Shown piece after piece: positions 20,575 to 44,063 of a stretch of 64,000 nt of DNA. The stretch spans positions 94,015 through 158,014 of the forward strand of contig NW_025955052.1 of assembly GCF_022376445.1 (NCBI RefSeq), given 5' to 3'. The position numbers and the translations under genes were made by a program. Numbering within the stretch: the first letter of the stretch is position 1; the number at the start of each line of letters is the position of its first letter. The notes beneath the pieces are model-generated. The model saw only the letters and a list, made by a program, of their open reading frames with translations. It searched no databases and was not told where the DNA came from. The DNA is from Fomitopsis serialis (Eukaryota; Basidiomycota; Agaricomycetes; Polyporales; Fomitopsidaceae).

Positions 20575-20817
20575 GATGCACTATCCGATATATTGAGTAA
20601 GTATGTCTTCAATCAGAACAGCGCGGGGGCGTACCTCGTCAGCTGTGGGCTAACGGTGTCAAAGTCTGGGAGCTAGAGGCTACCGGCTCAAGTCCAGTTA
20701 TACGGACGAAAACACGGAGCAACGGAGTGCGCGAAGCATCATGCATCATAAACAAAGGCGACTGATATAGTGGCTGGATTCCACAAATTCCAACAAAGAA
20801 AAGCCACTTCCTAATTT

Positions 20818-21424
20818 GCCGATGCAGAAGTCACGAAATGCAGCATCGAGGATATCCTCCACATCAATCACGCCAGAAATTTTGCCAATTGCCTGTGCGG
20901 CGTAGCGGAGTTCTTCCGCAGCCAGCACTGCGTCCTCTGCGTCTGGGATAAGCCCCGCGATCAGAGCCTGTTTCCTACGACGATCGAAGCACGCGCTCAC
21001 CAAAGCATAGGAAGGCATCCAGAAACTGCAGTGCATGCTCCAGGTTGACACGATGCCGGGCATGAGTTATGAGCGGACGGACATCCGTGTTCTGCTCCTG
21101 ATGTACGTCGTACCTGCAGGACGGTCAGAGCGCATGTCGAAGCGCGACTACCCGCTCCTGTAATGCCTGTGCGAATCCGTCTAGGAAGTCTTGCGTACCC
21201 TTACCCGTAGCCAAGCTGACGACCCATCCTCTGCTGGTTCCAAGGGCATCCAGTACAGCTGAAACTCGGTTGGGCGCGATATCCGCCACGTCTGACTTGT
21301 TCAAGAGCACGTAGGTGTCCGGCGCGATGAGCGAGGCCACGGAAGGCGGAACGGGGCTGATCGTGGATCCCTTCACGACGTCCGGCAGTGAAAGCACGCA
21401 AAGAGAGACGTTCGTCGATTCAAC
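20818..21424 (-). pseudogene. duplicated 3' fragment of MSS1 (MnmE/GTPBP3-type GTPase), interrupted by the mobile element
   Basis: Nearly identical to the 3' part of the intact MSS1 gene at 44064-46067. It includes the G4 segment [15 protein letters not shown], the [16 protein letters not shown] exon and the C-terminal [28 protein letters not shown]. It lacks the N-terminal domain and the G1-G3 motifs. Its stop codon is changed (TGA to TTA), so the frame runs past FCIGK. The fragment is cut at 21424 by the outer mobile element and resumes at 42180-42227 on the far side. It is therefore a dead duplicate. Confidence 0.9.
21418..21424. repeat. left 7-bp direct repeat ATTCAAC (target-site duplication)
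   Basis: ATTCAAC directly precedes the left inverted repeat and recurs at 42180-42186 beyond the right end. The uninterrupted paralogue at about 44680 has one copy (CGATTCAACTCTGAGG), as expected of the empty site. Seven bases match exactly; an eighth would be a mismatch. Confidence 0.8.
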
Positions 21425-21449
21425 CCCAGTCAAAACTGACACGAATTCA
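21425..21449 (+). repeat. left terminal inverted repeat of the outer element
   Basis: Begins CCCAGTCAAAACTGACAC and ends GAATTCA, 25 bp. It is perfectly complementary to 42152-42176. GAATT motifs recur just inside it. Confidence 0.9.
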
Positions 21450-22770
21450 AAAGAATTTGAGCGAAGCAGTACTAATACCTGTCAACGAGAACGAAGAAAT
21501 AAGAATTCTACCGATCAAAATCTAATTGAACTGCTCTCCTCGGAGCTAAAAGCGCTAAAGTGGACGCACGCTCGCGATCTCTGCCGCATTTTCTCTCTTC
21601 TTTCCTTGTGTGTCGCCCTTTCCGACGTGCGACGCGCGATTAACAGGGTTTGCGCAAAACGTATCCAGAGTCTCATTGCAGGCTGTACCCGAAGTTGCGT
21701 ATTTAAGATGACGATCGCGTGACTCTAACTCTTCGTCGTCGTCGCCACGACGTCATCCGCCGTCGCAGAGTGTCTTGAAACCTTGACTGCATACCACCAC
21801 CACCTTGCTTTCAAAGTTCTCCCTGTGGCCGTGTCGCGCTCTGTTACCCTGCTAATAGTTGCAGTGTGGCCTCTGGCTTCTATCTGTACTCTCAGGGTCT
21901 ATAGGTGTCGATACCGTGTCTCGAAGGCTGCTGGCAACGTCTTTCTGATAACCCGCTACTCTGGTGACAGGCCACGCGGCCTAGGACTCGCATGACACGA
22001 CCGCGAGTCGAGCGATAAGAACGTGGCATGCGCAAGGCAAGGAGAATAGTACGAGGAGGAGGAGAGACAGAAGGGAGAACAGTAAGGTGAGAGCAGGGGA
22101 CACGAGCACAAAGGCTCGAAACTCGATGGTACGCCCTCGATGGACATCCCCTCAGTGGACCACGCTTCCACTAATCACTACGATCAAGCCCACCTTCGCT
22201 TTATCACACAGCTAGACGTTCGCGGCCGTGAAGACGGGAGAATGACCAGGTCAGAGATCGTCGGTGAACGGTGAACGCGCACACGAGGTGGACAGAGCAA
22301 GCTCATCGAACGAGCATGAGCAAGAGTGGGTCAGCACGCAATAGATGAGGGTGTCCAAGGTGAGTGGGCGAGTGCTGACATCAGTACGCATCATGAACGC
22401 GCGGTGGACGAGAAGACAGGGAGAGCGAGCAGGTGGGCAAGGTGAGTAGGCAAGCGGGTGGGTGCGCGAGCGGGCGAAGCGGACGGACACAGGGCGCAGA
22501 CGAGCACCACACGCACGACGACCGCGAGCGCGCTAGGCGAATGCCCAGCACACAATCACGACCGACGAACGGAGTGCGCCCGTGCGAGCTCAGATAGCAA
22601 CAACGGTGGGTAGGGCCGAGGTGTACACAACACGCCGACCGCGAGCACCTAAGGCCAGTGCCTCGCGTGCAGACGCAGCCGATGAGCGCGCTATGGGTCA
22701 GGGCATGGTGGCGACCAGGCGGGAGGGCATGCGGACGGCGCGCGAGGGGCGGGGACGGGCAAGCGTGAGC
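21450..22770. other. left subterminal region of the outer element
   Basis: No gene recognised. The part next to the end has GAATTC/AGAATT motifs. From about 22000 to 22760 the plus strand is rich in A/G and GCGAGCGGG-like words and gives an open but low-complexity Cys/Pro/Arg frame on minus, which I do not believe is a protein. Confidence 0.5.
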
Positions 22771-22953
22771 TGGTCTCGTACCCATCCGTGTGGACGCACC
22801 CCACCACCGCTCCGACACGTCTGGGGCAGTTTGTGAGGGCGACCCCCCTTTGAATAGACGCCCGCGAGGCGCTCGCTGTAACGGTCACGACGGTCCAGAA
22901 TAGAAGCCTCGTGCCCTCAATCGTAGATTTGAGATAGACTTGTCCGATCGGAC
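22771..22953 (+). promoter_or_regulatory. 183-bp shared upstream sequence, helicase side
   Basis: An inverted copy lies at 41563-41746 with only a one-base difference in a G run that I could see. It ends in the 12-bp palindrome GTCCGATCGGAC (22942-22953), about 75 bp before the helicase ATG. Its position ahead of both cargo genes, reading inward, suggests a common promoter or regulator-binding region. That role is inference. Confidence 0.65.
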
Positions 22954-23027
22954 CTCCTTCCATTTAGAGAAAAGTACGCGCTCGTCACCGAGTCTCGAGG
23001 TTGCGACGGAAATCTATCACTACTACC

Positions 23028-24629
23028 ATGGCATTCTCTCGTGCTGATCTGTATGCAAAAGCGAATCACGACCTCAGGCGCAAAGTCGCGCAACAAAATA
23101 TTGAAAGGGCAAGAAAGCTAGCCACTGAAGAACATGGCTACGACTCAGCAAGAACTCGCAACATAATGGCAACGGAGTTCCATACACGAGCAAAAGAAAA
23201 GATGACAGCTCGCAAGTGGCAACTTGACGAAGCGGAATCGTTGGTGCTCGGCCTCGACTCTTCCTACATCGCTGGTACAGGGGCTGGCAAGACCGTACCG
23301 TACATGCTCCCGCTCTTTCTACCCGAGTTCCGCTCGAAAGTCCTCGTTGTTGTATCACCACTAAAATCATTACAACGAGATCAGGTATGCAGATAATAGA
23401 GACATACACTTCTCACTCACGTTTTGTGGTAGACGCGCCGCTTTCGGCACATGGGCATCGAAGCATGTGCTGTCAATGGTGACACATGGTCTGAGAGCCT
23501 CCGAAAGGTGCGCGGCATCCTGAGATTCGACATGAGCAATTATCTCACCGGACTGCAGGACCTATTAGCAGTCAAATACCGTGCTGTATTTACATCGCCA
23601 GAGATGTGCCTTGAGCATCCTGCGTGTCGCGAGACGATGTCCCAGTTGGGACTGTCCGAACGGATCGGCGCATGGGTCATCGACGAAGCTCACTGCATAT
23701 CGCAGTGGGGAGGGGATTTCCGGCCGACGTACGACAAACTCGACAAACTACGAGCAATTGTCCATGGCCGAACACCAGTTCTCGCACTCTCTGCAACACT
23801 AACTCCATCAGTACTCGAAGAAATCGAGACGAAGACTCACATTGATCCCATGACATCATACCACCTGAACCTGGGCAACGACAGACCAAACATCAAGCAG
23901 GTAGTTGTCGAGATGAAGAGCAAGGATGATCTAGACATACTAGACACAGTTCTTGATCTCGAGAGCATCTCTGCATCAACCGAAGTCCCAAAGACCCTCA
24001 TCTTCGCGAACACGCGGGCCGCGACTATGCAGATCTGGCGTCACATTCGCGAGAAGCTCAATGGGCGAATGGATGAAGATCAGATCGACTTCTTACATGC
24101 CTATAGACGACGTCGCGGCAGGGAGCGTGTCATGCAACGCTTTCGAGAGGGTGATATAAGGATTCTTGTCGCAACCGAGGCGGCGGGCATGGTCAGAGTG
24201 TCAGACTCGTGGAAACATACAGGAGATTAACGAGGACTTACAGGGAGCAGATATCCCTGACATCGAACGTGTTGTACAGTTCGGTGTCCCATCATCGTTG
24301 ACCGTGTGGATACAACGTGCGGGGCGGTCTCCGGATATTCAAGCCGTAGCAATCCTGCTTGTGGAGAAATCAGCATTTCAGCAGGTAGCTACGAAAAAAC
24401 GCAAGAAGAAGGCGCACGAGACGACCGCAAACGCCGTTGTCAGTCAGCCAGAAAAGACTTACAAGATGAATGTCGAAAACGCGCTCCGTGTATGGCTTGA
24501 AACGCCTAATTGCAGGCGCGTCATCACTGATGAGTACTTCAACAACCCACCAAGAGATAGTACTGGTATGTCGGAGTTTTGCTGTGCAAATCCTTGCTAA
24601 CGCGTTCGTTGTTGCGCGACCTGGGGTGG
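23028..24629 (+). pseudogene. RecQ-type DNA helicase, 5' part (split by nested transposon)
   Basis: Starts MAFSRADLYAKANHD. Helicase motifs in order: KWQLDEAESLVLGLD (Q-motif-like), Walker A AGTGAGKT (about residues 82-89), VVSPLKSLQRDQ (Ia), DEAHCISQWGGDF (II), LALSATLTP (III), TLIFANTRA (IV), then VATEAAGM and GADIPDIERVVQFG (V). Introns fit at about 23386-23433 and 24193-24243. Motif VI reads QRAGRSPDIQ, three residues shorter than the usual QxxGRxGR, so the second arginine is lost. This mobile RecQ-like family is widespread in Agaricomycetes. The gene continues at 30997 after the nested element, which sits in what would be a 77-bp intron (GTATGT..GGCAG). The protein would act on DNA as a 3'-5' helicase if repaired in function. 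Confidence 0.85.
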
Positions 24630-24927
24630 CACATCAGAACTTAGGGAAAACTACTGAACCTCGCTGAAGCCACTGAAATGGCCATTTCAGCGATGTTCAG
24701 TGTGTCACAGTAGCATTCAGTAGGGACCATTTTTCAATCGAAAGCTGGCCTGTATTTCGTCAGTAGCTGCTAGGTAGAATGTGTCAGCAGATGTCAGTAG
24801 ACGTCAGAGGATTTCATGGCACATCAATCTCGTTCGTGACATTTATGCATAGGTTCATTGGAACAGACGAGGTAGTACTACAATGTGAGACGACATGCGA
24901 CAACAGCTGTAAGGTACGGCATGACAT

Positions 24928-27279
24928 CTAGTCATCATCGCCATCACCCGATGACCCCTGGCCTTCGTCCCCTGCATCACCATCTCCCTCTGCTTCGGAT
25001 CCGCTCGGTGTGTACAGTCGAACAACCCGCGCCTTCGGCTCCCGTGGCTGTCGGTACGTCTCGCTTTTCTGGGTCTCTTTTGCAGCCTTGATGATTGTGT
25101 CGAATTGATCGGTATGACGAGAGAGCCACTCGATGTTCGTCCTGAATGCGCCGAGGACCAAGTCTCTCGCGGCGTCACCGTCCCATGCCGGAGTGCCTTG
25201 GTCCGAGCCAGACTGCCATTGCTCGAACGAAGCCTGTACCTGCAAAGTGAGCGAAGATACTGTCAGTCCAACACATACACAGTACGAAATAGACGGCGTA
25301 CTGCGGCGTAACACAGCGCAAGAGCGCCACTAGGGCGCGGCCGGTGCATACACGAGTTTTCAATAGTCTTGAGGTGCTTCGCGAACGTTTTGAGGATGTA
25401 CACGGATTTCATGCGACCGGCCTGTCGAGTTTGGTTAGCCGAATGATACAGCTGCCCGAGCCGCGGTGGACAAACCTTGCCATCGACTACATTGTTGAAT
25501 GCTGCTCCATGAGGCTCGAGAGCGTCCTTGACGTGCTTTGCACGGCCTGCTTTTCCGCCGTCCACGCGCTTGAGGTCCGCATCGACGAGTCGCTTCGCTT
25601 TCAGGAGGAGACCCTTGCGCCAGTCACGGACCTTCGTAGCACACTTCCGGAGCATTCAGTACGACATATGGAGCAAGCCATGCATTAGAATTACTTACAT
25701 GCTCGACAAACTTGTTGAATTGCGTATCGGTGAGGTCAGTGATTCGGAACTTCGGACAGACCTGGGCTAGAATCGCTTTGATGTTGTCACGAACATCGTC
25801 GAGGCTGATGTCCCAAGGGTTATCGAGTGAACCATAGAGTTCAATGAGCGTCGGGTGGATCTTCGTGAACCAGACACTGAATATCGCTGCGGGGACAACG
25901 GCAGCGGCGCCTCTTGACTTCTCTTGAGGTATATCGGCGGGAGCACGACGCGCCCGTTTTGCTTTCGCAGGCGTAGGGACTTCGGTGTCCGAGTCGATGA
26001 TCTCCACGAACTTAGACAGAGGGCACACATCACTGATGAGACAGCAGGCTAATACAGAGTAGCGATTTACACACCTGTTCTTGCGATTTCCGAAGCACCA
26101 CCATGTCCTCCTTCTTCAAAGCGACATCGCTGTCGGCCAGACCTCTCTCCTGCACAGCACTCTCCTCCTTTGAATCTTTCTTGCCCTGCGCGCGACCGTG
26201 ACGCTTCTTCGGTGCGTTGGTCGATTTCGTGGACATGGTGGCATCGTCATGGCGTGCAAGGCCGGCACCATCAATGATGGCCCGCCAGTCTTCGTTAAGG
26301 CCAGATGTCTTCGCTGATGCTTGTTTGCTCTTGACAGATTTCGCGGTGTTGCCAGCGCTGATACGGTGTCGATGAGACGCCTTTGGCCGCAGACGAATGA
26401 TATATGGCAAGACATGCAGACGCACCTTGTCTTTGCCTTCGACTTGTGAGTTCCTGACCGAGATGAAGCGGGAGGCGAAGCGGGAGGTGGGAGTTGACGG
26501 TGAGAGTCGATAGCAGAGAGCACAGAGACCACGCGCTCGCGCTTCTTGTCCTTGCGTCTTGACGCGGGCTGATTCGAACATCAGATAAGGTGCGTGGTAC
26601 CATACCTATAAACAATACGACCGTGTGTACTCACCGGTGCAGACTCAGACGCACTGCGCTCCTCCTCACTCTGCTCCTTATCGCCGTTGGCTGCGGTGTC
26701 GTCCTCTTCCTGCTCCACCATGTTGACGTCCGACTCGTAGCCATCAAGTGGCATCCCCGCCTCGTCAAGCAGAGCCTCCTCTTCGGCATGCCGATCCTGT
26801 AGTGCAGCAATCGTTTTTGTGCCTGCGTCCTCCTTTTCCTCGAGCAAGCGGGCTTCCTGTTCACGGGCATCCGCCTCAGCTTGATCCTCAGCTCGTTTCC
26901 TCTCTGCGACCTCTGCGATCTCAGTCTTGGACCGCTTGTGGAGACCGGCCGAACACGCGGGATGAGGATCGGTCTGGCGTGCTGTACGGCGCACAGTGAC
27001 AGCAGGACTCGGAGGACTAGCAGAGGGTTCGTCGAGATTGAAATCCGAGTCAGTATCCTGAGCATCTACCTCGGAGGTGCGTGCTTTCTTGCGTCGAGTC
27101 TGATGGGTCGACGCAGTGCTGACATCGAGTTCCAGATCGTTGTCGGTATCGCTCGGTGCTGGTGCAGACCGCTTGGATGCTGTCGACGTAGTACGGCCAG
27201 CAGATGAAGACCCGCCTCGTCTGTGTCCGCCTCTAGGCCCACGTCCATGCGGGCCACGCCCACGAGTTGCATTTGGCAT
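24928..27279 (-). CDS. accessory protein of Plavaka copy 1, unknown
   Basis: Multi-exon minus-strand gene inside the nested element, divergent from the transposase. I prefer the start MPNATRGRGPHGRGPRGG at 27279; an upstream in-frame ATG lies at 27411. The N-terminal half is Gly/Arg, Ser and Glu-rich with basic clusters (TRRKKARTSE) suggesting nuclear targeting. The C-terminal half is ordered: IFSVWFTKIHPTLIELYGSL, then VRDWRKGLLLKAKRLVDADL, AGRMKSVYILKTFAKHLK and FRTNIEWLSRHTDQFDTII, ending in an acidic tail SGDGDDD*. Introns fall between these blocks. I recognise no family with confidence and see no DDE or nuclease motif. It may assist the transposase, for example in binding ends or chromatin, but that is a guess from position alone. 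Confidence 0.65.
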
Positions 27280-27546
27280 GGAGTACAAGGTGACAGGGGA
27301 GGTGTAGCAGCAAGAAGCGTCGACTCGAAAGACAGCAGGCAAGTCAAAGACGAAGCCAGAGAACCGAGCGGGATCGAGCGTGCGACCCAGCGTGTGCCGC
27401 CTTGCCAACACCCCAAGGATCAGTCTCGACTCGAACTTGTTGCAACAAGTGTCGCATCAGTTCGCTTGAAGCACTCCGCAGCTCTCGACGCCGTGTTTCA
27501 CTGGTACTTCTCCCTCTTCGCTCGCTCGAGCCTCTGTATACTCACT

Positions 27547-30500
27547 ATGACTTTCTTTTGTGTAACCTGTTCAGCAACATTCACCACCCGACGAGCTTTC
27601 CGCACGCATGTCGCCAGAGAACACAAACATCCCAAGCCGAAGGTTCCTTCCCTTCGGAGGCAAAATCACTACATACTCAACGGTTCGTGTTGCACAAATA
27701 TCGCAGCCAAGTTTAGCTGACCGCTTCTGTTCCTTACAGGTCGCCCGTGTGACGAGAACGGTCATTACCTCCCGCCAGGGACGCCGCCGCCGCCACCGCC
27801 TCCACCTATCACTAACTTCGAGCCATTTCCCGACCGCCCATCATTCGAATTCGCAGAACTCACTGTTGAGAAGATGGCTACGTCTCGCGAAGACATTGAC
27901 CACCTCCTGCGAATAATCCGTGCGAAGAATATCATGGATGGTGTCGAAGATTCGCCTGACGATTCTGGTCTCTTTCCTGGACTCTCGGCGGAGCTGCAGC
28001 GTACTCTCGACGCGATCCCCTTTGGCGACATCCCCTGGTTCTCTTTCAAAATTCGCTGGTCTGGCCCTATCACCCCGACGTCACCGGCTTGGAAAAGACA
28101 GACGTACGTTGTCCACACGCGCGACCCACTTGCTGCGTTCGAGAACACTCTCCGCAATGCAGAATACAAGAACAAGTTCGACGTCTGTGCGTACAAAGAA
28201 TTCACGCCAGGAGGCAAGCAGAGGTGGTGCGATTTCATGTCAGGACTGTGGGCTTGGAAGGAGTCGGTAAGTCTGAATTGATACTCGGCAAATGTGCACG
28301 CTTCCGACTCATATTGCTCGACATTACAGAGCAAGATTGCCCTGGACCCATCAACCCGTGGTGCGATGCTCGCCACAGCGATCGTTGGCGCTGATAAGAC
28401 GACCGTATCAGTTGCGAGTGGTGATCAGGAATTCCATCCTGTGTACGTCTCACTGGGTAACTTACATAACGATATCCGGCGCGGGCATGGGGAGGCAGTG
28501 ATACCACTGGCGTTCCTCGCCATTCCCAAAGGTGTGTCGAATTTGAGTGTCTGCATATACTATCAAGAGCTAAGGGCATCGTCGGCTTAGGTTCGAACGA
28601 AGACGAGAATGACCCCGAGTTCCGCATCTTCAAGAAGCAGATCTACCACCGATCTCTCGCACACATCTTCGAACCTCTCAGGCCGTGGATGACAACACCG
28701 CGCGTGACGCTCTGCCCAGACGGTCACTTTCGCCGGGTTATCTACTCGCTCGGACCATTCATTGCCGACTACCCAGAGCAAGTCTACCTCTCTGGCGTTG
28801 TCCAAGGATGGTGTCCAAAGTATGTTCGCCCTAGTTCGTTTTGCAACATCAATGTCACTAACCTTGTAATTCACAGATGTTTTGCTGCACCCGACGAGCT
28901 CGGAGAAGGAGCTCTGCGATTCCGAGAGCTAACACAACAAATCAAAGATACGTACTCGCATGATCCTGACGTCTTGTGGGACGCATTCGGTATCGCTCCC
29001 GGGGTGAAGGTATGACAAGGCATGTTGATCGAGTGAATACATGTTGACAGTTTACAGCCCTTCACGGATTACTTCCCACGTGCGGACATCCACGAAGCAC
29101 TCTCTCCAGATCTCCTGCATCAGTTGATCAAAGGAACCTTTAAGGACCATCTTGTCGAGTGGGTACTCGACTACATCAGAATGAACAATTCAGCCCGTGA
29201 GGCCAACACGATCATCGATGCTCTTGACCGCCGGTGAGTGCCCATCTGCTAATTCCGTGAATTATTGAGTAACATTCCTTGTAGACTTCGATCAGTACCT
29301 GCATTCCCCGGTCTACGGCGCTTCAAACAAGGCCGAAACTTCAAACAATGGACAGGTGATGACTCGAAGGCACTGATGAAGGTAAGTTCCGTCCGTTATC
29401 TAGTGGGGCTCTCTAAGTAACCTCGTCGTGCCCCATATATTTCAGATTTTCATTCCTGCAATAGCTGATGTTGGGGTCCCCGGACGTGTTGTTGAATGCG
29501 TCCGGTCGTTCATGGACTTCTGTTACATTGCTCGGCGATCTACCCACGACGAGGACTCTCTGCGGCTCATGGAGACTCATCTGCGCCGCTTCCACGAGCT
29601 TCGGGAGGTCTTCCGCGAGGAGGCTATCCGTGCGAACTTCACGTTGCCGCGCCAACACGCCCTTATGCACTACGTTCGAGGGATCAGGCTCTTCGGGTCC
29701 CCGAACGGTCTCTGCTCGTCGATCACAGAATCGAAGCATATCCGTGCAGTCAAGAAGCCGTGGCGTGCAACGAACAAGAACAACCCGCTGCAACAGATCC
29801 TTAAGATCAACTGTTGGCTGAGCAAAATTGCTGCCGCGCGTTCTGTTTGGGGGGCTAATGGGTTGCTCCGACACGACGTCCTCTCGGCTGCCCGCCGTCA
29901 TGCCCATCCAGAATACTACGACTCGGATGATGACCAGGATGACCGGCCCGGAGGTCCTCACCGAGCTATGGTTGATGAAGAAGCTGACGATGCAGACGAA
30001 GAGGGTGGTGATGCCGAAAATCGTCACTTCAATGACATTGCTGACGTTTTGGGTGAGCCAGAGCCACTCTCTATAGAGTTGGCTAAGAAGCCAGGTATGT
30101 TACTATCAGTCTCACTCGAAGCAATGCTAATATCTTGTTGTCAGCGTATTCGCGACCGATCTCGCGACTCGATCTCGACGCGAGACTCAAGACCCTCCTG
30201 CCAAATCTCATTCGCCGCTTTCTCCATGAACAGCTTGACCCTCCAGCAGACTCCGACTCCGACTCTGACAATGAGCCCGAGGACGTGGACATCGAAGACT
30301 GCCCTCGCTTCCACGGGCATGTCGCTGTGTACTACAGCGCGCGCGCACTCTATTATGCTCCGAGTGAGCTGTCCGGGCCGGGCGGGATGCATTCAGAGGT
30401 CATCCGCAGCCATCCGCTGTGGTACGGAAAGTACGAGCGCCGCGACACCGTGCTTGTCCAGGATGGACCAGATGATGGTGTCATGGGAGGTATGGTTGTG

Positions 30501-30824
30501 GCACGAGTACTTGCATTTCTCTCATTCTCGCACAACGAGATCAAGTACCCATGTGCACTCATTCAGTGGCTCCTCCCAATCGGTGACGCTCCCGACCCTA
30601 CCACAGGCATGTGGGTCTTGGAGCCCGAAGTGTTTGATGGTGAGCGGGCTGTAGGATTGATACACACAGACTGTATTGTTCGTGCTTGTCATACTCCCCC
30701 TGTTTATGGTAGAGGTCGTCTTCCGGCCGATTTCGATTTCTCCTACTCACATCTCGCTTTCAAACGGTTTTATTTGAACAAATGGGCTGATTATCATGTA
30801 CATGAATGTTATCCATTGGTTTGA
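27547..30824 (+). CDS. Plavaka transposase, copy 1 (apparently intact)
   Basis: Multi-exon gene starting MTFFCVTCSATFTTRRAF, a C2H2 finger with C5, C8, H21 and H26. The next exon opens with the family's GRPCDENGHYLPPG and a proline run. Conserved blocks follow: PFGDIPWFSFKIRWSGP, YVVHTRDPLAAFENTL, GADKTTVSVASG, YVSLGNLHNDIRRGHG, FRRVIYSLGPFIADYPEQ, VQGWCPK, RFKQGRNFKQWTGDDSKA, VRSFMDFCYIARRSTHDED and RLFGSPNGLCSSITESKH. The exon carrying the six-guanine run near 29855 continues in frame through VWGANGLLRHDVLSAA to the acidic C-terminal part, unlike copy 2. The last exon ends HVHECYPLV* at 30824. It should recognise and cut the element ends in the nucleus. The 27280-27546 gap to the accessory gene is probably a shared two-way promoter. 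Confidence 0.85.
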
Positions 30825-30996
30825 TCAGTAGTTTCGTGCGTCGAATATATGATAGTTTAGCTCGTCTACAGAGCAATGATACTGACATGCTGATGGCGCT
30901 GAGCTCACTGACGGCTTCTGAGGTAAATGTCTTCAATTTCGTCAGTGTGTGTCAGTGTGCATCAGTGCGTCGGGGAATCACCGAAGTACTGATGCA

Positions 30997-32259
30997 GTCG
31001 ATCCAGAGAGATGTTGTGATAACTGTGCGGCGAGAGCACTTGACTGCGAGTCCGAGTCGGAGGCGCCGCAACGTGTGCCATTGACGCCTTCGCGAACACC
31101 GCCTTCACACGCGTCCAGCGAGTTCAGCGCACCCTCTGTCCGTGCCCTCCTTAGCCCCTCCGCCATCTTCAACACTCCTACGAGCTCGGTGGGCACGCCT
31201 TCTCGACGCAAGCGAAGGCGTGCAGACTCGGACGTGCTTCAGACACCAACGAAGAAACGGCGAACGCACGCAGTGCCCGCCATGGAGGATGACGCAGGAC
31301 CGACGACACTGGCGAGTGTACGAGCTGGGAAACGGTACGATGCCGCAATGGATGCTTTGAAGGCCTGGCGACACACGACGATTCTCTCCGAGCGTTATGC
31401 GAACTTCCCGATCACCGAGCATGGGCTGCTCATGGATGACCAGCTGCGGAAGCTCGTGCATGATGCCACTCTGAAGACTTCAAGACTCTGGAGGATATCG
31501 AGCAGCGGGTGCATAATCCGCCTTGGGTCTTGCTGAAGCGGCACGGTCTCGAGGTGCTTGAGATCTTGCAAAAGGTCGACAAGGCATTCGAAAAGCCGGG
31601 CAACGCAAAGCGCGGGAAGCGTGGCGACGTTCAACGGAAGGAAAATCGGCCAGCTGCACCGAGGACGCGTAGCCTCGCGGCTACGCTGCAGTCCGAAACA
31701 GTCGACTTGGGATGCGACCTGGTACGTTCAAGATGTGTTCGCAGATTCAGTACTGAACATTGCACTACAGGCTGATGACTTACAGTCCACGTCGTCATCT
31801 GCAATGCCGACTCCGTCCGGCTCAACAGCAGGTGCCGGAGCACCATCGACGTTGCATGTGCCCATGACGGGATCACAACGCCCGATGTACGACCTGCTGC
31901 ACAGTCGAGCAGTCATCCCACCTGCTCACCCTCTATCGCTCGCTCGGTTCAGCTTACCGACAACCATCCACGTCAATGTACCTCCGGCCGCACCATATCC
32001 AACACATCCCATCGTAAATCTACCGACACGCTCAGGTAAGTCCGTGTCATTTGATATTGTCTGTCAGGTACTCACAATCCTAGCGTCTTCACGAGCGTTA
32101 TTGCCACACAGTCGTGACACATCCCAGGTCTTCTGTCCTCAAGCGCGATCCATTGTGTCGTCTTCCGCGCCATCAGCACCGGTGTTTTCGTCGCCGCCTT
32201 CGTCTTCATCATCTGCCATCATCCCTCCTTCGTCGTCAACATCGGATAATTGGCTATAG
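30997..32259 (+). pseudogene. RecQ-type DNA helicase, 3' part
   Basis: Resumes immediately after the nested element. With one CA retained and the intron removed, the reading passes from PPRDST into VDPERCCDNCAARALD, the cysteine motif of this helicase family. A Ser/Pro and basic linker follows (PSRRKRRRADSD, TPTKKRRTH, a likely nuclear signal). Then come helical segments LRKLVHDATLKT and KTLEDIEQRVHNPPWVLLKR. Between these two the frame slips near 31478 (one base short), so this half also carries a frameshift. The end of the gene is uncertain; an open frame reaches TAG at 32257-32259 and overlaps the 3' end of the DUF6589 gene on the other strand. Confidence 0.7.
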
Positions 32260-34971
32260 TCCTCGTCGACACGGCGAGCATATGTGCGTGCATTCTCCCA
32301 TCTTCCTAGCGTCTTTGCGAACTCAGCGATGCCGTTGTTGTAGAAGTCCTTGACTCTCTCGGACTCGCGTTCCACGAGACGGCCTGGCACTGTGACGTGA
32401 ACGCGAGCACTGGTATATGTTTGCTGAAGTAGTTTGATCCCTTTTTCGTCATCTGGTGTTGTATGTTTCTTATAGCGTGTCCATGTTGCAAATTCTGTTT
32501 CCATGTGCTCGGAAAGTGCCTGTATAACAGGGAGAACCGGATGAAGCTTCCGGAAGTACTCCCAATTGACATTAGGCCCTTGTGATCGGTTCGTAACCTG
32601 AAAAGACCAGTATGTGTGAGCGGATCTAGGGCTTTGCATTATCCTCTTGCGAAGGCTTACCTTGATCTTTCCTATGTTAGCTTCCTGTGCACGGTCGACC
32701 GGCGTGAACCCCTCGCGTCGTCCTGTGCTGTTCACTAGCCAACAGAACTTTCGTACGAAATCACTGTGAGTACATTAGCACTGATCCGGATTCATCATGA
32801 ATGATATAACACGACGTACGCAACAGCGGGTGGCCATTCTCTGTGAAGACCTTGCAGTAACTCGACACACTCTGTCGTGTAGTGCGAATTCCGACCACCA
32901 GCAAATCGAAAGGCCAAGTGAGGTAGCATACCCTCCATCATTCCGACGTCTCCGTGCTTGATCGCCCGCTCGAGGACAAGATATTGAAGTACGTCGTGAT
33001 TGAACATGCATGCTTGTTCCTTCACTTCATCGCGCGAGACGCCGGCTGCACGTAGGTGCTTGACGGCTCGGAATGATGCGTGCTCGTCTACGAGTTGTAT
33101 GGCGAGTTGCTTCAGAGCCTCTGGTCGGCTCTTCCTGAGCTCGGCCAAGTTAGAGACATTGCCGACGACTTTCCAGCATGTGCGGATATGGGCAGTGAGA
33201 ATGTGACGAAGGGCGCGCTCCAGATTGTCGTGAAAGGGCCCTTTCGTCGAGACTTTGTCAAGTCCCTTCCGCCTGAGCTGCGTGAAGGCGTGTTTCAGCC
33301 CTAGCCCAGCGTTCGTTCCGAGGTATTGTTTGTGAATATTCTTGGCATATGCCATCATAGCATGTAGCCAGCCGAAAACAGCTACGATGAAATCGAGGCG
33401 GTCCAGAGAGTTATACTCTTGGCAGCAGAACCGCTGCATGCCTCGGATACGATCGACCGTGAGTTGATCACCTATCCAATAGATGACGCGCTCAAGGCTC
33501 ATCTTCTTCAGTTCGTCCGGGGTATCAAACCCGAGTTGCTTCAGAAACTCGAAGATAATCCGGTCGTTGTCTTCGTAGGTTGCTTGTGGGATTGGTACAC
33601 TGCCGAGCATATACTGCAGTGTAACGTGGTCCTCGCCACAAGGCAGTTCATCCACAGGTGATGGCGGATTGAGGTGTACACTGTTCTTGAACTCGTAAGT
33701 GCTGAGGTCGAATTCAGGTGTGTCCAACAGCATCTCCAGTACCAGGTAGGCCATGTGCTGCTGAATGGCAGGATAGCTCTCCTCTGCCCATCCGAAGACC
33801 TCTATCACCGTGATGGGGTCGTGGATGCCTCGTCTTCGCCACACTTGCAGATCACGATTGAGTGTCGGATCAATGGGAGGGGCATCCTTGCGGATGTAGA
33901 CTGTCCCAGCTGTCCCAGATCCAAACTCTGCATGCTGGTCCAACCTCTGGGAAAATATGCGGAAGGATACTTGCATGTTATCGTGTGAGATGATATATTG
34001 AAGTGCAGACACGAGTGTCTGGGCATCTCGCATGGCTTCTGCGGATAGGCTCGAGACAGCATCAGTAACCCACTTTGTGCTCATCATGATACCCAGAGCA
34101 TGCAGTGTGTCGCAGCCTTTTGCTGAAAGGCCCTTGAACTTGAAGTAGATGGCCAAGACTCGTTGAAGTCGGTTTGCGAATCGATTGCGGCAATATGCCA
34201 GAATGGAGATGATAAGCATGATGATCTGTCATACATGTAGATCAAACCAATCAGACCTCAGTCAATAGACACAACTTGCCTTGCTGTTGTCTTTCTGAGT
34301 TCCACGTTTCCGTTGTACATCACTAGTGGCAATGCCTTCTAGCAACATCCATATTGTTGGTGCCGATTTTTGCATGTCAGCTTGCAATTGACTGATATGA
34401 ATTGCAGTGAGGTCAGCCTTGGTGAGAAGATCGTCTGATGACTTCACGAGAGCCTCCACATTGCCCAGCTCAGTCTCTGCTGTTTCCTTCATCGTCTCCA
34501 AAGCAAAGCGATTGAGAGTCTCCTCGGCTCCCTCGGGTCGCTTCTTCTTTGAGGTCTTCTGGCGTGGAGGTTTGCGCCAGCGTTTCAGCAACACTGGAAG
34601 TGTTGGGCTCTGTAGAAATCGTGTGCGCGACTGGCGGATACGATTGTTAGTGACACATGCTTGATTACCCCAGCTATACGCATCCAAGAACTGAGCCATT
34701 GTCATCTTCTCCTCCTTGATGGCATCCAAAATACGCAGAACAGAGGCACAGATGCCATCCTGATCTTGAGCGGAGGTATTGTGGCCTGGCTCTTCTCCCC
34801 TGGCTCTGCAGATTGACTCGGATATTCCATGTCGTCCGAATCTTCGACATTGGGTGGTCCTATTAATTGGACAGTTGAACATGATAAAGTGCATAAAATA
34901 GAGAATTTACCAGAGTCATCGGCCATGGGATAGTCTATGGATGGCGAAGGCGAGGGACTCGGAGATGATGA
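32139..34971 (-). CDS. DUF6589-family protein, main part (3' exons)
   Basis: Minus-strand exons: SSSPSPSPSPSIDYP, then PNVEDSDDMEYPSQ.., a long helical region (VLRILDAIKEEKMTMAQFLD), then the core of about 475 residues starting near 34219. Core blocks match the Agaricomycete DUF6589 family: LSAKGCDTLHALGI, ERVIYWIGDQLTVDRIRGMQ, DRLDFIVAVFGWLHAMMAY, HKQYLGTNAGLGLKHAF, VSTKGPFHDNLERAL, VLERAIKHGDVGMMEG, LQGLHREWPP. The next exons give NSTGRREGFTPVDRAQEA, NRSQGPNVNWEYFRKL and an acidic C-terminus ending DDTMDRA* at 32139. The function of DUF6589 is unknown. The family is multicopy in mushrooms, and here it is a cargo gene of a mobile element. The 5' exon is displaced to 41338-41548 by nested copy 2. 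Confidence 0.85.
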
Positions 34972-35143
34972 TGCATCAGTACTTCGGTGATTCCCCGACG
35001 CACTGATGCACACTGACACACACTGACGAAATTGAAGACATTTACCTCAGAAGCCGTCAGTGAGCTCAGCGCCATCAGCATGTCAGTATCATTGCTCTGT
35101 AGACGAGCTAAACTATCATATATTCGACGCACGAAACTACTGA

Positions 35144-38100
35144 TCAAACCAATGGATAACATTCATGTACATGATAATCAGCCCATTTGTTCAAATAAAA
35201 CCGTTTGAAAGCGAGATGTGAGTAGGAGAAATCGAAATCGGCCGGAAGACGACCTCTACCATAAACAGGGGGAGTATGACAAGCACGAACAATACAGTCT
35301 GTGTGTATCAATCCTACAGCCCGCTCACCATCAAACACTTCGGGCTCCAAGACCCACATGCCTGTGGTAGGGTCGGGAGCGTCACCGATTGGGAGGAGCC
35401 ACTGAATGAGTGCACATGGGTACTTGATCTCGTTGTGCGAGAATGAGAGAAATGCAAGTACTCGTGCCACAACCATACCTCCCATGACACCATCATCTGG
35501 TCCATCCTGGACAAGCACGGTGTCGCGGTGCTCGTACTTTCCGTACCACAGCGGATGGCTGCGGATGACCTCTGAATGCATCCCGCCCGGCCCGGACAGC
35601 TCACTCGGAGCATAATAGAGTGCGCGCGCGCTGTAGTACACAGCGACATGCCCGTGGAAGCGAGGGCAGTCTTCGATGTCCACGTCCTCGGGCTCATTGT
35701 CAGAGTCGGAGTCGGAGTCTGCTGGAGGGTCAAGCTGTTCATGGAGAAAGCGGCGAATGAGATTTGGCAGGAGGGTCTTGAGTCTCGCGTCGAGATCGAG
35801 TCGCGAGATCGGTCGCGAATACGCTGACAACAAGATATTAGCATTGCTTCGAGTGAGACTGATAGTAACATACCTGGCTTCTTAGCCAACTCTATAGAGA
35901 GTGGCTCTGGCTCACCCAAAACGTCAGCAATGTCATTGAAGTGACGATTTTCGGCATCACCACCCTCTTCGTCTGCATCGTCAGCTTCTTCATCAACCAT
36001 AGCTCGGTGAGGACCTCCGGGCCGGTCATCCTGGTCATCATCCGAGTCGTAGTATTCTGGATGGGCATGACGGCGGGCAGCCGAGAGGACGTCGTGTCGG
36101 AGCAACCCATTAGCCCCCAAACAGAACGCGCGGCAGCAATTTTGCTCAGCCAACAGTTGATCTTAAGGATCTGTTGCAGCGGGTTGTTCTTGTTCGTTGC
36201 ACGCCACGGCTTCTTGACTGCACGGATATGCTTCGATTCTGTGATCGACGAGCAGAGACCGTTCGGGGACCCGAAGAGCCTGATCCCTCGAACGTAGTGC
36301 ATAAGGGCGTGTTGGCGCGGCAACGTGAAGTTCGCACGGATAGCCTCCTCGCGGAAGACCTCCCGAAGCTCGTGGAAGCGGCGCAGATGAGTCTCCATGA
36401 GCCGCAGAGAGTCCTCGTCGTGGGTAGATCGCCGAGCAATGTAACAGAAGTCCATGAACGACCGGACGCATTCAACAACACGTCCGGGGACCCCAACATC
36501 AGCTATTGCAGGAATGAAAATCTGAAATATATGGGGCACGACGAGGTTACTTAGAGAGCCCCACTAGATAACGGACGGAACTTACCTTCATCAGTGCCTT
36601 CGAGTCATCACCTGTCCATTGTTTGAAGTTTCGGCCTTGTTTGAAGCGCCGTAGACCGGGGAATGCAGGTACTGATCGAAGTCTACAAGGAATGTTACTC
36701 AATAATTCACGGAATTAGCAGATGGGCACTCACCGGCGGTCAAGATCATCGATGATCGTGTTGGCCTCACGGGCTGAATTGTTCATTCTGATGTAGTCGA
36801 GTACCCACTCGACAAGATGGTCCTTAAAGGTTCCTTTGATCAACTGATGCAGGAGATCTGGAGAGAGTGCTTCGTGGATGTCCGCACGTGGGAAGTAATC
36901 CGTGAAGGGCTGTAAACTGTCAACATGTATTCACTCGATCAACATGCCTTGTCATACCTTCACCCCGGGAGCGATACCGAATGCGTCCCACAAGACGTCA
37001 GGATCATGCGAGTACGTATCTTTGATTTGTTGTGTTAGCTCTCGGAATCGCAGAGCTCCTTCTCCGAGCTCGTCGGGTGCAGCAAAACATCTGTGAATTA
37101 CAAGGTTAGTGACATTGATGTTGCAAAACGAACTAGGGCGAACATACTTTGGACACCATCCTTGGACAACGCCAGAGAGGTAGACTTGCTCTGGGTAGTC
37201 GGCAATGAATGGTCCGAGCGAGTAGATAACCCGGCGAAAGTGACCGTCTGGGCAGAGCGTCACGCGCGGTGTTGTCATCCACGGCCTGAGAGGTTCGAAG
37301 ATGTGTGCGAGAGATCGGTGGTAGATCTGCTTCTTGAAGATGCGGAACTCGGGGTCATTCTCGTCTTCGTTCGAACCTAAGCCGACGATGCCCTTAGCTC
37401 TTGATAGTATATGCAGACACTCAAATTCGACACACCTTTGGGAATGGCGAGGAACGCCAGTGGTATCACTGCCTCCCCATGCCCGCGCCGGATATCGTTA
37501 TGTAAGTTACCCAGTGAGACGTACACAGGATGGAATTCCTGATCACCACTCGCAACTGATACGGTCGTCTTATCAGCGCCAACGATCGCTGTGGCGAGCA
37601 TCGCACCACGGGTTGATGGGTCCAGGGCAATCTTGCTCTGTAATGTCGAGCAATATGAGTCGGAAGCGTGCACATTTGCCGAGTATCAATTCAGACTTAC
37701 CGACTCCTTCCAAGCCCACAGTCCTGACATGAAATCGCACCACCTCTGCTTGCCTCCTGGCGTGAATTCTTTGTACGCACAGACGTCGAACTTGTTCTTG
37801 TATTCTGCATTGCGGAGAGTGTTCTCGAACGCAGCAAGTGGGTCGCGCGTGTGGACAACGTACGTCTGTCTTTTCCAAGCCGGTGACGTCGGGGTGATAG
37901 GGCCAGACCAGCGAATTTTGAAAGAGAACCAGGGGATGTCGCCAAAGGGGATCGCGTCGAGAGTACGCTGCAGCTCCGCCGAGAGTCCAGGAAAGAGACC
38001 AGAATCGTCAGGCGAATCTTCGACACCATCCATGATATTCTTCGCACGGATTATTCGCAGGAGGTGGTCAATGTCTTCGCGAGACGTAGCCATCTTCTCA

Positions 38101-38420
38101 ACAGTGAGTTCTGCGAATTCGAATGATGGGCGGTCGGGAAATGGCTCGAAGTTAGTGATAGGTGGAGGCGGTGGCGGCGGCGGCGTCCCTGGCGGGAGGT
38201 AATGACCGTTCTCGTCACACGGGCGACCTGTAAGGAACAGAAGCGGTCAGCTAAACTTGGCTGCGATATTTGTGCAACACGAACCGTTGAGTATGTAGTG
38301 ATTTTGCCTCCGAAGGGAAGGAACCTTCGGCTTGGGATGTTTGTGTTCTCTGGCGACATGCGTGCGGAAAGCTCGTCGGGTGGTGAATGTTGCTGAACAG
38401 GTTACACAAAAGAAAGTCAT
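35144..38420 (-). pseudogene. Plavaka transposase, copy 2 (frameshifted)
   Basis: Same gene as copy 1, starting at the C2H2 finger at 38420. All conserved blocks are present, but the guanine run near 36112 has five bases instead of six. After SKIAAARSVW the reading goes to GLMGCSDTTSS and stops early, where copy 1 reads GANGLLRHDVLS. The C-terminal exons are therefore out of frame. If this is not a consensus error, copy 2 depends on a transposase made elsewhere, such as by copy 1. Confidence 0.85.
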
Positions 38421-38687
38421 AGTGAGTATACAGAGGCTCGAGCGAGCGAAGAGGGAGAAGTACCAGTGAAACACGGCGTCGAGAGCTGCGGAGTGCTTCA
38501 AGCGAACTGATGCGACACTTGTTGCAACAAGTTCGAGTCGAGACTGATCCTTGGGGTGTTGGCAAGGCGGCACACGCTGGGTCGCACGCTCGATCCCGCT
38601 CGGTTCTCTGGCTTCGTCTTTGACTTGCCTGCTGTCTTTCGAGTCGACGCTTCTTGCTGCTACACCTCCCCTGTCACCTTGTACTCC

Positions 38688-41039
38688 ATGCCAAATGCAA
38701 CTCGTGGGCGTGGCCCGCATGGACGTGGGCCTAGAGGCGGACGCGGACGAGGCGGGTCTTCATCTGCTGGCCGTACTACGTCGACAGCATCCAAGCGGTC
38801 TGCACCAGCACCGAGCGATACCGACAACGATCTGGAACTCGATGTCAGCACTGCGTCGACCCATCAGACTCGACGCAAGAAAGCACGCACCTCCGAGGTA
38901 GATGCTCAGGATACTGACTCGGATTTCAATCTCGACGAACCCTCTGCTAGTCCTCCGAGTCCTGCTGTCACTGTGCGCCGTACAGCACGCCAGACCGATC
39001 CTCATCCCGCGCGTTCGGCCGGTCTCCACAAGCGGTCCAAGACTGAGATCGCAGAGGTCGCAGAGAGGAAACGAGCTGAGGATCAAGCTGAGGCGGATGC
39101 CCGTGAACAGGAAGCCTGCTTGCTCGAGGAAAAGGAGGACGCAGGCGCAAAAACGATTGCTGCACTACAGGATCGGCATGCCGAAGAGGAGGCTCTGCTT
39201 GACGAGGCGGGGATGCCACTTGATGGCTACGAGTCGGACGTCAACATGGTGGAGCAGGAAGAGGACGACACCGCAGCCAACGGCGATAAGGAGCAGAGTG
39301 AGGAGGAGCGCAGTGCGTCTGAGTCTGCACCGGTGAGTACACACGGTCGTATTGTTTATAGGTATGGTACCACGCACCTTATCTGATGTTCGAATCAGCC
39401 CGCGTCAAGACGCAAGGACAAGAAGCGCGAGCGCGTGGTCTCTGTGCTCTCTGCTATCGACTCTCACCGTCAACTCCCACCTCCCGCTTCGCCTCCCGCT
39501 TCATCTCGGTCAGGAACTCACAAGTCGAAGGCAAAGACAAGGTGTGTCTGCATGTCTTGCCATATATCATTCGTCTGCGGCCAAAGGCGTCTCATCGACA
39601 CCGTATCAGCGCTGGCAACACCGCGAAATCTGTCAAGAGCAAACAAGCATCAGCGAAGACATCTGGCCTTAACGAAGACTGGCGGGCCATCATTGATGGT
39701 GCCGGCCTTGCACGCCATGACGATGCCACCATGTCCACGAAATCGACCAACGCACCGAAGAAGCGTCACGGTCGCGCGCAGGGCAAGAAAGATTCAAAGG
39801 AGGAGAGTGCTGTGCAGGAGAGAGGTCTGGCCGACAGCGATGTCGCTTTGAAGAAGGAGGACATGGTGGTGCTTCGGAAATCGCAAGAACAGGTGTGTAA
39901 ATCGCTACTCTGTATTAGCCTGCTGTCTCATCAGTGATGTGTGCCCTCTGTCTAAGTTCGTGGAGATCATCGACTCGGACACCGAAGTCCCTACGCCTGC
40001 GAAAGCAAAACGGGCGCGTCGTGCTCCCGCCGATATACCTCAAGAGAAGTCAAGAGGCGCCGCTGCCGTTGTCCCCGCAGCGATATTCAGTGTCTGGTTC
40101 ACGAAGATCCACCCGACGCTCATTGAACTCTATGGTTCACTCGATAACCCTTGGGACATCAGCCTCGACGATGTTCGTGACAACATCAAAGCGATTCTAG
40201 CCCAGGTCTGTCCGAAGTTCCGAATCACTGACCTCACCGATACGCAATTCAACAAGTTTGTCGAGCATGTAAGTAATTCTAATGCATGGCTTGCTCCATA
40301 TGTCGTACTGAATGCTCCGGAAGTGTGCTACGAAGGTCCGTGACTGGCGCAAGGGTCTCCTCCTGAAAGCGAAGCGACTCGTCGATGCGGACCTCAAGCG
40401 CGTGGACGGCGGAAAAGCAGGCCGTGCAAAGCACGTCAAGGACGCTCTCGAGCCTCATGGAGCAGCATTCAACAATGTAGTCGATGGCAAGGTTTGTCCA
40501 CCGCGGCTCGGGCAGCTGTATCATTCGGCTAACCAAACTCGACAGGCCGGTCGCATGAAATCCGTGTACATCCTCAAAACGTTCGCGAAGCACCTCAAGA
40601 CTATTGAAAACTCGTGTATGCACCGGCCGCGCCCTAGTGGCGCTCTTGCGCTGTGTTACGCCGCAGTACGCCGTCTATTTCGTACTGTGTATGTGTTGGA
40701 CTGACAGTATCTTCGCTCACTTTGCAGGTACAGGCTTCGTTCGAGCAATGGCAGTCTGGCTCGGACCAAGGCACTCCGGCATGGGACGGTGACGCCGCGA
40801 GAGACTTGGTCCTCGGCGCATTCAGGACGAACATCGAGTGGCTCTCTCGTCATACCGATCAATTCGACACAATCATCAAGGCTGCAAAAGAGACCCAGAA
40901 AAGCGAGACGTACCGACAGCCACGGGAGCCGAAGGCGCGGGTTGTTCGACTGTACACACCGAGCGGATCCGAAGCAGAGGGAGATGGTGATGCAGGGGAC
41001 GAAGGCCAGGGGTCATCGGGTGATGGCGATGATGACTAG
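38688..41039 (+). CDS. accessory protein of Plavaka copy 2, unknown
   Basis: Counterpart of the gene at 24928-27279. It differs by a few residues seen directly: GGRGRGGSS instead of GGHRRGGSS, ARSAGL instead of ACSAGL, EQEACLLEE instead of EQEARLLEE, and VCLHV instead of VRLHV. All blocks are open, so unlike the neighbouring transposase it shows no break. Start preferred at MPNATRGRG (38688). Family and function unknown. Confidence 0.65.
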
Positions 41040-41337
41040 ATGTCATGCCGTACCTTACAGCTGTTGTCGCATGTCGTCTCACATTGTAGTACTACCTCGT
41101 CTGTTCCAATGAACCTATGCATAAATGTCACGAACGAGATTGATGTGCCATGAAATCCTCTGACGTCTACTGACATCTGCTGACACATTCTACCTAGCAG
41201 CTACTGACGAAATACAGGCCAGCTTTCGATTGAAAAATGGTCCCTACTGAATGCTACTGTGACACACTGAACATCGCTGAAATGGCCATTTCAGTGGCTT
41301 CAGCGAGGTTCAGTAGTTTTCCCTAAGTTCTGATGTG

Positions 41338-41548
41338 GCCACTGATATCTATCCTCGTCCGAATCGACAGCCTCTTGATGGTCAGATGTGTGATCAGAGG
41401 CATAGTCCTCTTCATCAGAGAAAAGTTGAGTGCGGGTATGCGTGTAGTTGTGCAGTCGGCGCAGCATTGCGCGCAGGAATCGCTGGAGTCGAGTCGGTGT
41501 CGAGTGGCTGAAGATCGCACGAAGACGGTGAGGCTTGTCGCCCATCAA
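41338..41548 (-). CDS. DUF6589-family protein, first exon (displaced by nested copy 2)
   Basis: Starts MMGDKPHRLRAIFSHSTP, continues LQRFLRAMLRRLHNYTH and ends in an acidic stretch SDEDRYQWP at the border of the nested element. It continues in frame with SSSPSPS at 34971 when the element and one CA are removed. The start codon lies only 15 bp inside the 183-bp shared upstream sequence, so the messenger leader must lie within that sequence. In its present state the gene is split by 6.36 kb and is probably not expressed as one protein. Confidence 0.75.
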
Positions 41549-41562
41549 TACCTGATTAGGCA

Positions 41563-41746
41563 GTCCGATCGGACAAGTCTATCTCAAATCTACGATTGAG
41601 GGCACGAGGCTTCTATTCTGGACCGTCGTGACCGTTACAGCGAGCGCCTCGCGGGCGTCTATTCAAAGGGGGGGTCGCCCTCACAAACTGCCCCAGACGT
41701 GTCGGAGCGGTGGTGGGGTGCGTCCACACGGATGGGTACGAGACCA
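41563..41746 (-). promoter_or_regulatory. 183-bp shared upstream sequence, DUF6589 side
   Basis: Inverse copy of 22771-22953, with one extra guanine in a run. Its gene-proximal end is the palindrome GTCCGATCGGAC (41563-41574), 14 bp before the DUF6589 start codon. Similarity stops sharply at both borders of the block. Confidence 0.65.
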
Positions 41747-42151
41747 CAGGTACGCGGGTCGTGGGTGCGGTATGCCCTCGCGCACCCCCTGTGGTACGTC
41801 GATCTCTAAGGCTGTGGCTGTGGTACACGCGTGCTGAGGTGTTGATGCACTGGCCCTTGCGAGCTACTCCCTGGTGTGTATAGCGGTCAAAATACAGCCG
41901 GTGGATGCGGCGCATCCAGGAGCAGGAAATAGTAAAACAAATCATGTATTATATTCGTATGAAGCGTCGCGCTGGCGGCGCTGAAATTCTCCCGAATTAG
42001 ATTGTATTCGGTCCAGTAGACCAGAATTCGCTCGCCTTCGTTGTGCTTCATACTGCTTCGCCGTTTTACCGAAGGAACGCTGGCGCCTCGAAGGATTCCG
42101 AAGAGAATCGAATTTCTTTGACATATTCGCTAGAAATCTGTGGAATTCGCC
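41747..42151. other. right subterminal region of the outer element
   Basis: No gene. From about 41985 to the end, GAATT words recur (GAATTAG, GAATTCGC, GAATTTC, GAATTCGTG), similar to those next to the left end. They could be binding sites for the protein that moves the outer element. Confidence 0.5.
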
Positions 42152-42176
42152 TGAATTCGTGTCAGTTTTGACTGGG
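42152..42176 (-). repeat. right terminal inverted repeat of the outer element
   Basis: 25 bp, perfect inverse of 21425-21449. It is followed by AAT and then ATTCAAC. Confidence 0.9.
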
Positions 42177-42179
42177 AAT

Positions 42180-42186
42180 ATTCAAC
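42180..42186. repeat. right 7-bp direct repeat ATTCAAC (target-site duplication)
   Basis: Continues into TCTGAGGAGAGGTGTCAGCT, which matches the uninterrupted MSS1 intron at about 44686-44705 and so resumes the interrupted duplicate. Confidence 0.8.
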
Positions 42187-43766: not shown

Positions 43767-44063
43767 GACGCACTGTCAAATTGATGTACATGATTTAGGA
43801 CTATCGACGCGACGGACTAGGTGAGGGGGGAGGGAACATACCTCACAGCTATGATGCGACGACGCAATGGGTGGTTGCTCAAGCGAACGGTATCACCTTG
43901 ACTTTTATGAGTGCAACTACAGTTCACGAAGCCTTCGGACGATCAAGAGACCGTTGCTCCATGGAAAGGGGCGACACAGTGCACGAGGTATCAAGTAACA
44001 AGCACACAGCGATGGCTGCGGTAACTCGCCTTCTCAGAATATAGACACAGGGAAAGTACCTTC

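Follow-up and report, generated by a model that had tools for sequence, protein, structure and literature searches.

A two-gene DNA transposon of Fomitopsis serialis with a RecQ-type helicase and a DUF6589 protein, probably of the AcademH type

In the polypore Fomitopsis serialis (Agaricomycetes) a RecQ-type helicase gene and a DUF6589 gene are enclosed by a pair of inverted repeats of their own (22771-41746). We consider it very likely that they constitute a two-gene DNA transposon, most likely of the AcademH type, with DUF6589 as the predicted transposase and the helicase as an accessory. The window, that is the whole stretch of 64,000 nucleotides that was analyzed, is C799:94015-158014 from an assembly of 66.2 Mb in 806 contigs. 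It contains a nested arrangement, in which a gene-free outer element harbors the helicase/DUF6589 element, which in turn harbors two Plavaka transposons; the outer element and the helicase/DUF6589 element are unrelated to each other. The features are as follows.

21418-21424, plus strand: ATTCAAC, left target duplication of the outer element
21425-22770, plus strand: left part of the outer element, including the terminal repeat 21425-21457; 99.4% identity over 1346 bp to the copy on contig C282
22771-22958, plus strand: left terminal inverted repeat of the helicase/DUF6589 element, beginning TGGTCTCGTACCC; inverted match to 41558-41746
23028-24600, plus strand: RecQ-family helicase, 5' exons; Pfam DEAD and Helicase_C, TIGR00614 (7.6e-28)
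24630-30996, plus strand: nested Plavaka transposon, copy A; Pfam Plavaka, 1.7e-17 to 3.2e-29 in four of the five pieces scanned
30997-32100 (end approximate), plus strand: 3' part of the helicase gene, assigned by reading
32139-34972, minus strand: main exons of the DUF6589 gene, a predicted DDE transposase; PF20231, 1.4e-90 on 32795-34219
34972-41337, minus strand: nested transposon, copy B, near the DUF6589 start; assigned to Plavaka through its identity to copy A
41338-41549, minus strand: probable first exon of the DUF6589 gene, an open frame starting MGDKPHRLRAIF, read by eye
41558-41746, minus strand: right terminal inverted repeat of the helicase/DUF6589 element; inverted match to 22771-22958, recurring genome-wide
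41747-42176, plus strand: right part of the outer element, including the terminal repeat 42144-42176; 99.5% identity to the C282 copy
42180-42186, plus strand: ATTCAAC, right target duplication of the outer element, preceded by three extra bases
44683-44689, plus strand: empty site of the outer element in a duplicated segment, with a single ATTCAAC

The presence of the two genes, their convergent orientation in the window and the two nested transposons all agree with the preliminary description of this DNA. The nearest NCBIfam model of the helicase is TIGR00614 (RecQ family), with 97.5 bits against a cut-off of 219.8 when one exon was scanned, and its PDB matches are led by WRN, RECQ5, and BLM. 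The 3' part starts with CCDNC, which we take to be a RecQ-like zinc motif; 30949-31536 in this region gave no Pfam match. Copies A and B are nearly identical and oppositely oriented, and copy A likely sits within the helicase gene at an intron position.

Two elements and their ends

The preliminary description placed the two genes at the heart of an element of 8 kb, with 25-bp CCCAGTC repeats as its ends and a 7-bp duplication flanking it. The repeats are indeed there (25 bp identical, 33 bp at 91%), they and a near-perfect duplication bracket the genes, and the duplicated copy of this segment of the window keeps the target site without an insertion, as had been reported for a site at about 44.68 kb, where the duplicated gene was given the name MSS1. 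ATTCAAC was correctly placed on both sides, with the reservation that AAT (42177-42179) separates the right copy from the element end. We nevertheless reject this delimitation of the element as very improbable, for the following reasons. A genome search with up to three mismatches located the 25-bp end at eight places on six contigs, two each on C799 and C282 and one each on C504, C181, C423, and C100. Of these, C504 holds an incomplete duplicate of the window locus that shares its flank. On C282 both ends lie 1.94 kb apart within a clean 7-bp duplication, GCTGAGC, and bracket neither helicase nor DUF6589 gene. This copy matches the window from 21425 to 22770, continues with 160 bp of its own, and matches again from 41746 to 42176; the segment without a counterpart thus starts and stops at the inner inverted repeats. 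The 160 bp had no match among the other outer-element copies compared. The single recognized ends are flanked by GTTGAAC on C181 and C423 and by GTTCAAC on C100. Since C282, C181, C423, and C100 are all absent from the listed genome-wide helicase and DUF6589 matches, the outer element is non-autonomous, and the gene pair does not belong to it. Repeats that occur without these genes are among the outcomes which the preliminary description itself had named as refuting it. The target duplication and the ends that had been proposed as diagnostic, CCCAGTCAAAACTGAC, belong to this outer element, and it is the inner repeats, missed earlier, that bound the two genes. On C52, the closest paired relative, the inverted repeats likewise lie just beyond the genes and correspond in position to the inner ones. 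No transposase was recognized by eye in the lists of long open frames near the outer-element relatives on C100 and C423. C100 also has a weak 56-bp inverted repeat, which we disregarded because the gene pair is absent there.

The inner repeats are about 185 bp long (TGGTCTCG...) and close outside both genes, their inner edges being separated from the helicase ATG (23028) by about 70 bp and from the likely DUF6589 start by about 10 bp. A DNA search of the genome gave 46 matches, 43 of which begin at base 1 (counting the two in the window and C504). From this list we picked 18 copies in 20 stretches, 16 of them short and two longer with both ends. Ten show perfect duplications of at least 8 bp, representing eight distinct sites (seven with 8 bp, one with 9 bp), because C545 and C542 share one site, and C432 and C223 another; the duplication of C756 depends on a right end that matches poorly and on a flank that is repetitive. 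The duplications of C364 and C94 are off by single mismatches, and C568, C90, C792, C143, C734, and C35 have no duplication or no second end. Because the repeat recurs from one exact base and duplications surround its copies, base 22771 is a genuine transposon terminus, and most duplications made by the window's family are of 8 bp. No target duplication was seen around the window copy itself, and compared with C282 the surrounding outer element lacks 160 bp; recombination between two insertions is a possible cause of both.

The gene pair in the rest of the genome

Searches of the same genome gave at least 93 PF20231 matches, which were clustered into 45 loci, and, with two helicase queries, at least 40 helicase loci. 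A helicase lies within 10 kb of 31 of the 45 DUF6589 loci, where uniform placement expects 0.54 and reached a maximum of 5 in 20,000 runs. Duplicate contigs inflate the number of pairs (C390/C523 are 100% identical over 5 kb, C235/C556 99.8%), and half of the 31 would still be far above the random maximum. Several of the unpaired DUF6589 loci are at contig ends (e.g. C49, C674, and C444). The convergent pairs within 10 kb that had been anticipated were found in this genome as far as the pairing goes, and as far as orientation goes for 22 of the 31; the other nine are divergent, and none is in tandem.

The 45 loci represent diverged families; among the matches listed, no other copy is closer to the window's DUF6589 than 38% identity. 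Sequences of both genes were available for 18 pairs, which were reduced to 14 non-redundant ones, and the tree distances of helicase and DUF6589 are correlated in these (r = 0.93, permutation p 0.0001). Five divergent pairs among the 14 form one clade in both gene trees.

Besides the window, eight contigs have inverted repeats outside both genes. Counting the window, five of the nine loci have a 9-bp duplication, one has 8 bp and three have none. The 9-bp duplications, read by eye, are CCTCGCCAA on C223 (terminal repeat of 307 bp, 100% identical), CTGCACTCT on C445, TCTTTACGT on C446, GTTCTTTGC on C805, and GGTGACCGG on C113, where two inverted units, 12.9 kb, are enclosed; the 8-bp duplication, also by eye, is CCGTAACG on C52. 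Ends without a visible duplication were found on C260 and C632, and no convincing repeat was found on C124, C34, C48, C1, C235, C556, C390, and C523, mostly with little flank examined.

The 440-bp left flank of the C445 element is found again on C417 and on C446, with 100% identity in both. C417 reads ...GTTGTTC CTGCACTCT CACAAGTGGCCC..., which is both C445 flanks with one copy of the duplication and no element. It is therefore clear that the whole two-gene unit at C445 was inserted precisely and is missing from the second copy of its site. C135, which is 74% related to the C52 locus, runs across the insertion point without the element and with a 6-bp gap, and is supportive rather than exact. 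A search with the C223 flank matched C223 alone in the genome. As a separate observation, C446 carries the left flank of C445 to within about 20 bp of its element, yet has another duplication and another far flank.

Collectively, the linkage, the agreeing trees, the end-bounded units with duplications, and the empty site strongly support that the helicase and DUF6589 are two genes of one transposon, as the preliminary description had proposed. Telomere-linked RecQ families do exist in fungi (PMC4522978, in the part of the text available), but given the linkage, the matching trees, the terminal repeats, the duplications, and the empty site, it is hardly conceivable that these are host subtelomeric RecQ genes which neighbor DUF6589 genes by chance.

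DUF6589 as a predicted transposase

The DUF6589 protein of the window, as far as it was searched, is 100% identical to the public protein P0001 (859 aa, Fomitopsis serialis). We found 155 relatives; PF20231 is present in all of the 120 listed, which are mostly labelled “hypothetical protein” or DUF6589, and the named ones are, as far as we recognize them, presumably from mushroom-forming fungi. Our literature search returned no paper on DUF6589 or PF20231. No NCBIfam model matched the protein, and a profile of 82 proteins gave no sequence match in PDB. The predicted models have an RNase H-like core with a large helical insertion and conserved D, D, and E residues, namely D286, D457, and E700. 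Foldseek alone was too weak to decide the fold, and a second look with VIA-align was used instead, which placed the predicted fold closest to the hAT (Hermes) and P element transposases. DUF6589 is accordingly predicted to be a DDE transposase.

Judged from the D-D-E residues and the predicted fold, DUF6589 would be the cutting enzyme of the element. The RecQ-type helicase may play an accessory part, opening or remodeling the DNA at the element ends or during repair. Movement would be by cut-and-paste rather than copy-paste, and the short non-autonomous copies with the same ends (about 78-87 bp, up to 2 kb) could be mobilized in trans. If this is true, PF20231 relatives are transposases and the adjoining RecQ-like helicases are transposon genes rather than host repair genes, so that the numbers of genes and the RecQ repertoires given for mushroom genomes would be corrected. 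An opposed pair that is co-inherited across diverged families also allows one to ask why some DDE transposons carry a helicase.

Relation to known helicase-carrying transposons

The predicted RNase H core with its large helical insertion resembles the hAT (Hermes) and P transposases. These elements have 8-bp target duplications, as does the TGGTCTCG family; to our knowledge they carry no helicase gene, and they differ from DUF6589, which has no sequence match in PDB. The resemblance of the fold, the 8-bp duplications of the window's family and the missing NCBIfam and PDB matches would all suit a superfamily of helicase-carrying DNA transposons that is new and separate from Academ, with DUF6589 as its transposase. 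We consider this unlikely, though it deserves some weight, since a helicase, 9-bp duplications at five loci and a low copy number in Basidiomycota correspond to AcademH as described in the available parts of PMC10045372 and PMC10799480. Similarly improbable in our view is the version in which DUF6589 is a separate eukaryotic DDE superfamily not descended from Academ, which independently and stably recruited a RecQ helicase while the gene order switched between convergent and divergent.

The target duplication of Kolobok elements is TTAA, whereas the duplications found here are 8-9 bp and of varied sequence. The helicase here is also a separate, opposed gene, while in KolobokH, a fungal group with a RecQ helicase, the helicase is downstream of the transposase domain, according to the accessible portion of PMC9587614. 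A RecQ helicase beside a (here predicted) DDE transposase in a fungus is common to both, and the same portion of PMC9587614 describes a red-alga Kolobok with its RecQ helicase on the complementary strand; all the same, we give an assignment to KolobokH, or to any other Kolobok that has a RecQ helicase, very little credence. With Helitrons the element shares an encoded helicase. Helitrons have neither terminal inverted repeats nor a target duplication, and this assignment was rejected because the helicase/DUF6589 elements have both.

The AcademH lineage reportedly goes back to Kojima in 2020 (Mob DNA 11:15). It is described as a lineage of Academ that encodes a helicase and has 9- or 10-bp target duplications (PMC10045372), and as occurring at low copy number in Basidiomycota, Ascomycota, and Mucoromycota (PMC10799480), in those parts of the two papers that were available. 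Similarly limited parts of other papers report putative non-autonomous Academ elements in Marasmius oreades (PMC8290104) and Academ in bivalves, the latter without a sequence motif (PMC10294476); PMC12730594 and PMC9674265 do not mention Academ. The statement that no description of such a pairing as a transposon class was known is consequently doubtful, as both AcademH and KolobokH have been published (PMC10045372, PMC10799480, and PMC9587614, as far as their available text goes). Like AcademH, the helicase/DUF6589 element is a DNA transposon with a helicase inside an end-bounded unit, it is present at low copy number in a basidiomycete, and five of its loci have duplications of 9 bp, within the 9 or 10 bp of AcademH. 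Unlike AcademH, the window's own family has mostly 8-bp duplications, which is one base short. Compared with the AcademH descriptions by its helicase, its host range, and, at five loci, the length of its duplications, the helicase/DUF6589 element works like AcademH and is probably a member of it rather than a new class.

Short copies with the inner-element ends

Palindromic copies of 78-87 bp, consisting of the terminal inverted repeats of the helicase/DUF6589 element (22771-41746) alone, occur at several genome sites and are a MITE family whose ends are common to that element. Examples among a larger number of such copies (C-numbers denote contigs of the same assembly) are:

C545:54213-54299, palindromic inner-repeat copy
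C202:13662-13747, palindromic inner-repeat copy
C190:184598-184682, palindromic inner-repeat copy

Insertions and repeats at the locus

Each gene of the helicase/DUF6589 element holds one Plavaka-type transposon (24630-30996 and 34972-41337), the two being nearly identical and oppositely oriented. If their ends are CATCAG...CTGATG, these copies would carry 2-bp flanking duplications (CA and TG). The 7-bp targets of the gene-free outer element, here (21418-21424, 42180-42186) and on C282, C181, C423 and C100, fit the palindromic RYTSARC. A segment at 20001-21424 is repeated at 43348-44689, some 23 kb away, with piecewise identities of 72-98%; it takes in the MSS1-like segment and also parts of two reading frames that are putatively SET-domain-like by their motif.

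Helicase/DUF6589 pairs elsewhere

The divergent pairs on C1, C48, C632, C34 and C124 (five of the nine found, the number taken into the trees) group as a single clade in the helicase tree and in the DUF6589 tree alike, so a single switch of gene order may account for them. The left flank of the C445 pair (43832-44300) is also present at C446:263037-263509, to about 20 bp from the element, beyond which C446 diverges, with a different 9-bp duplication and a different far flank; rearrangement, a second insertion or misassembly are candidate causes of this mismatch. The arrangement on C113 (269037-281941) is composite-like: two mutually inverted helicase/DUF6589 units lie between one shared pair of outer 9-bp duplications (GGTGACCGG).
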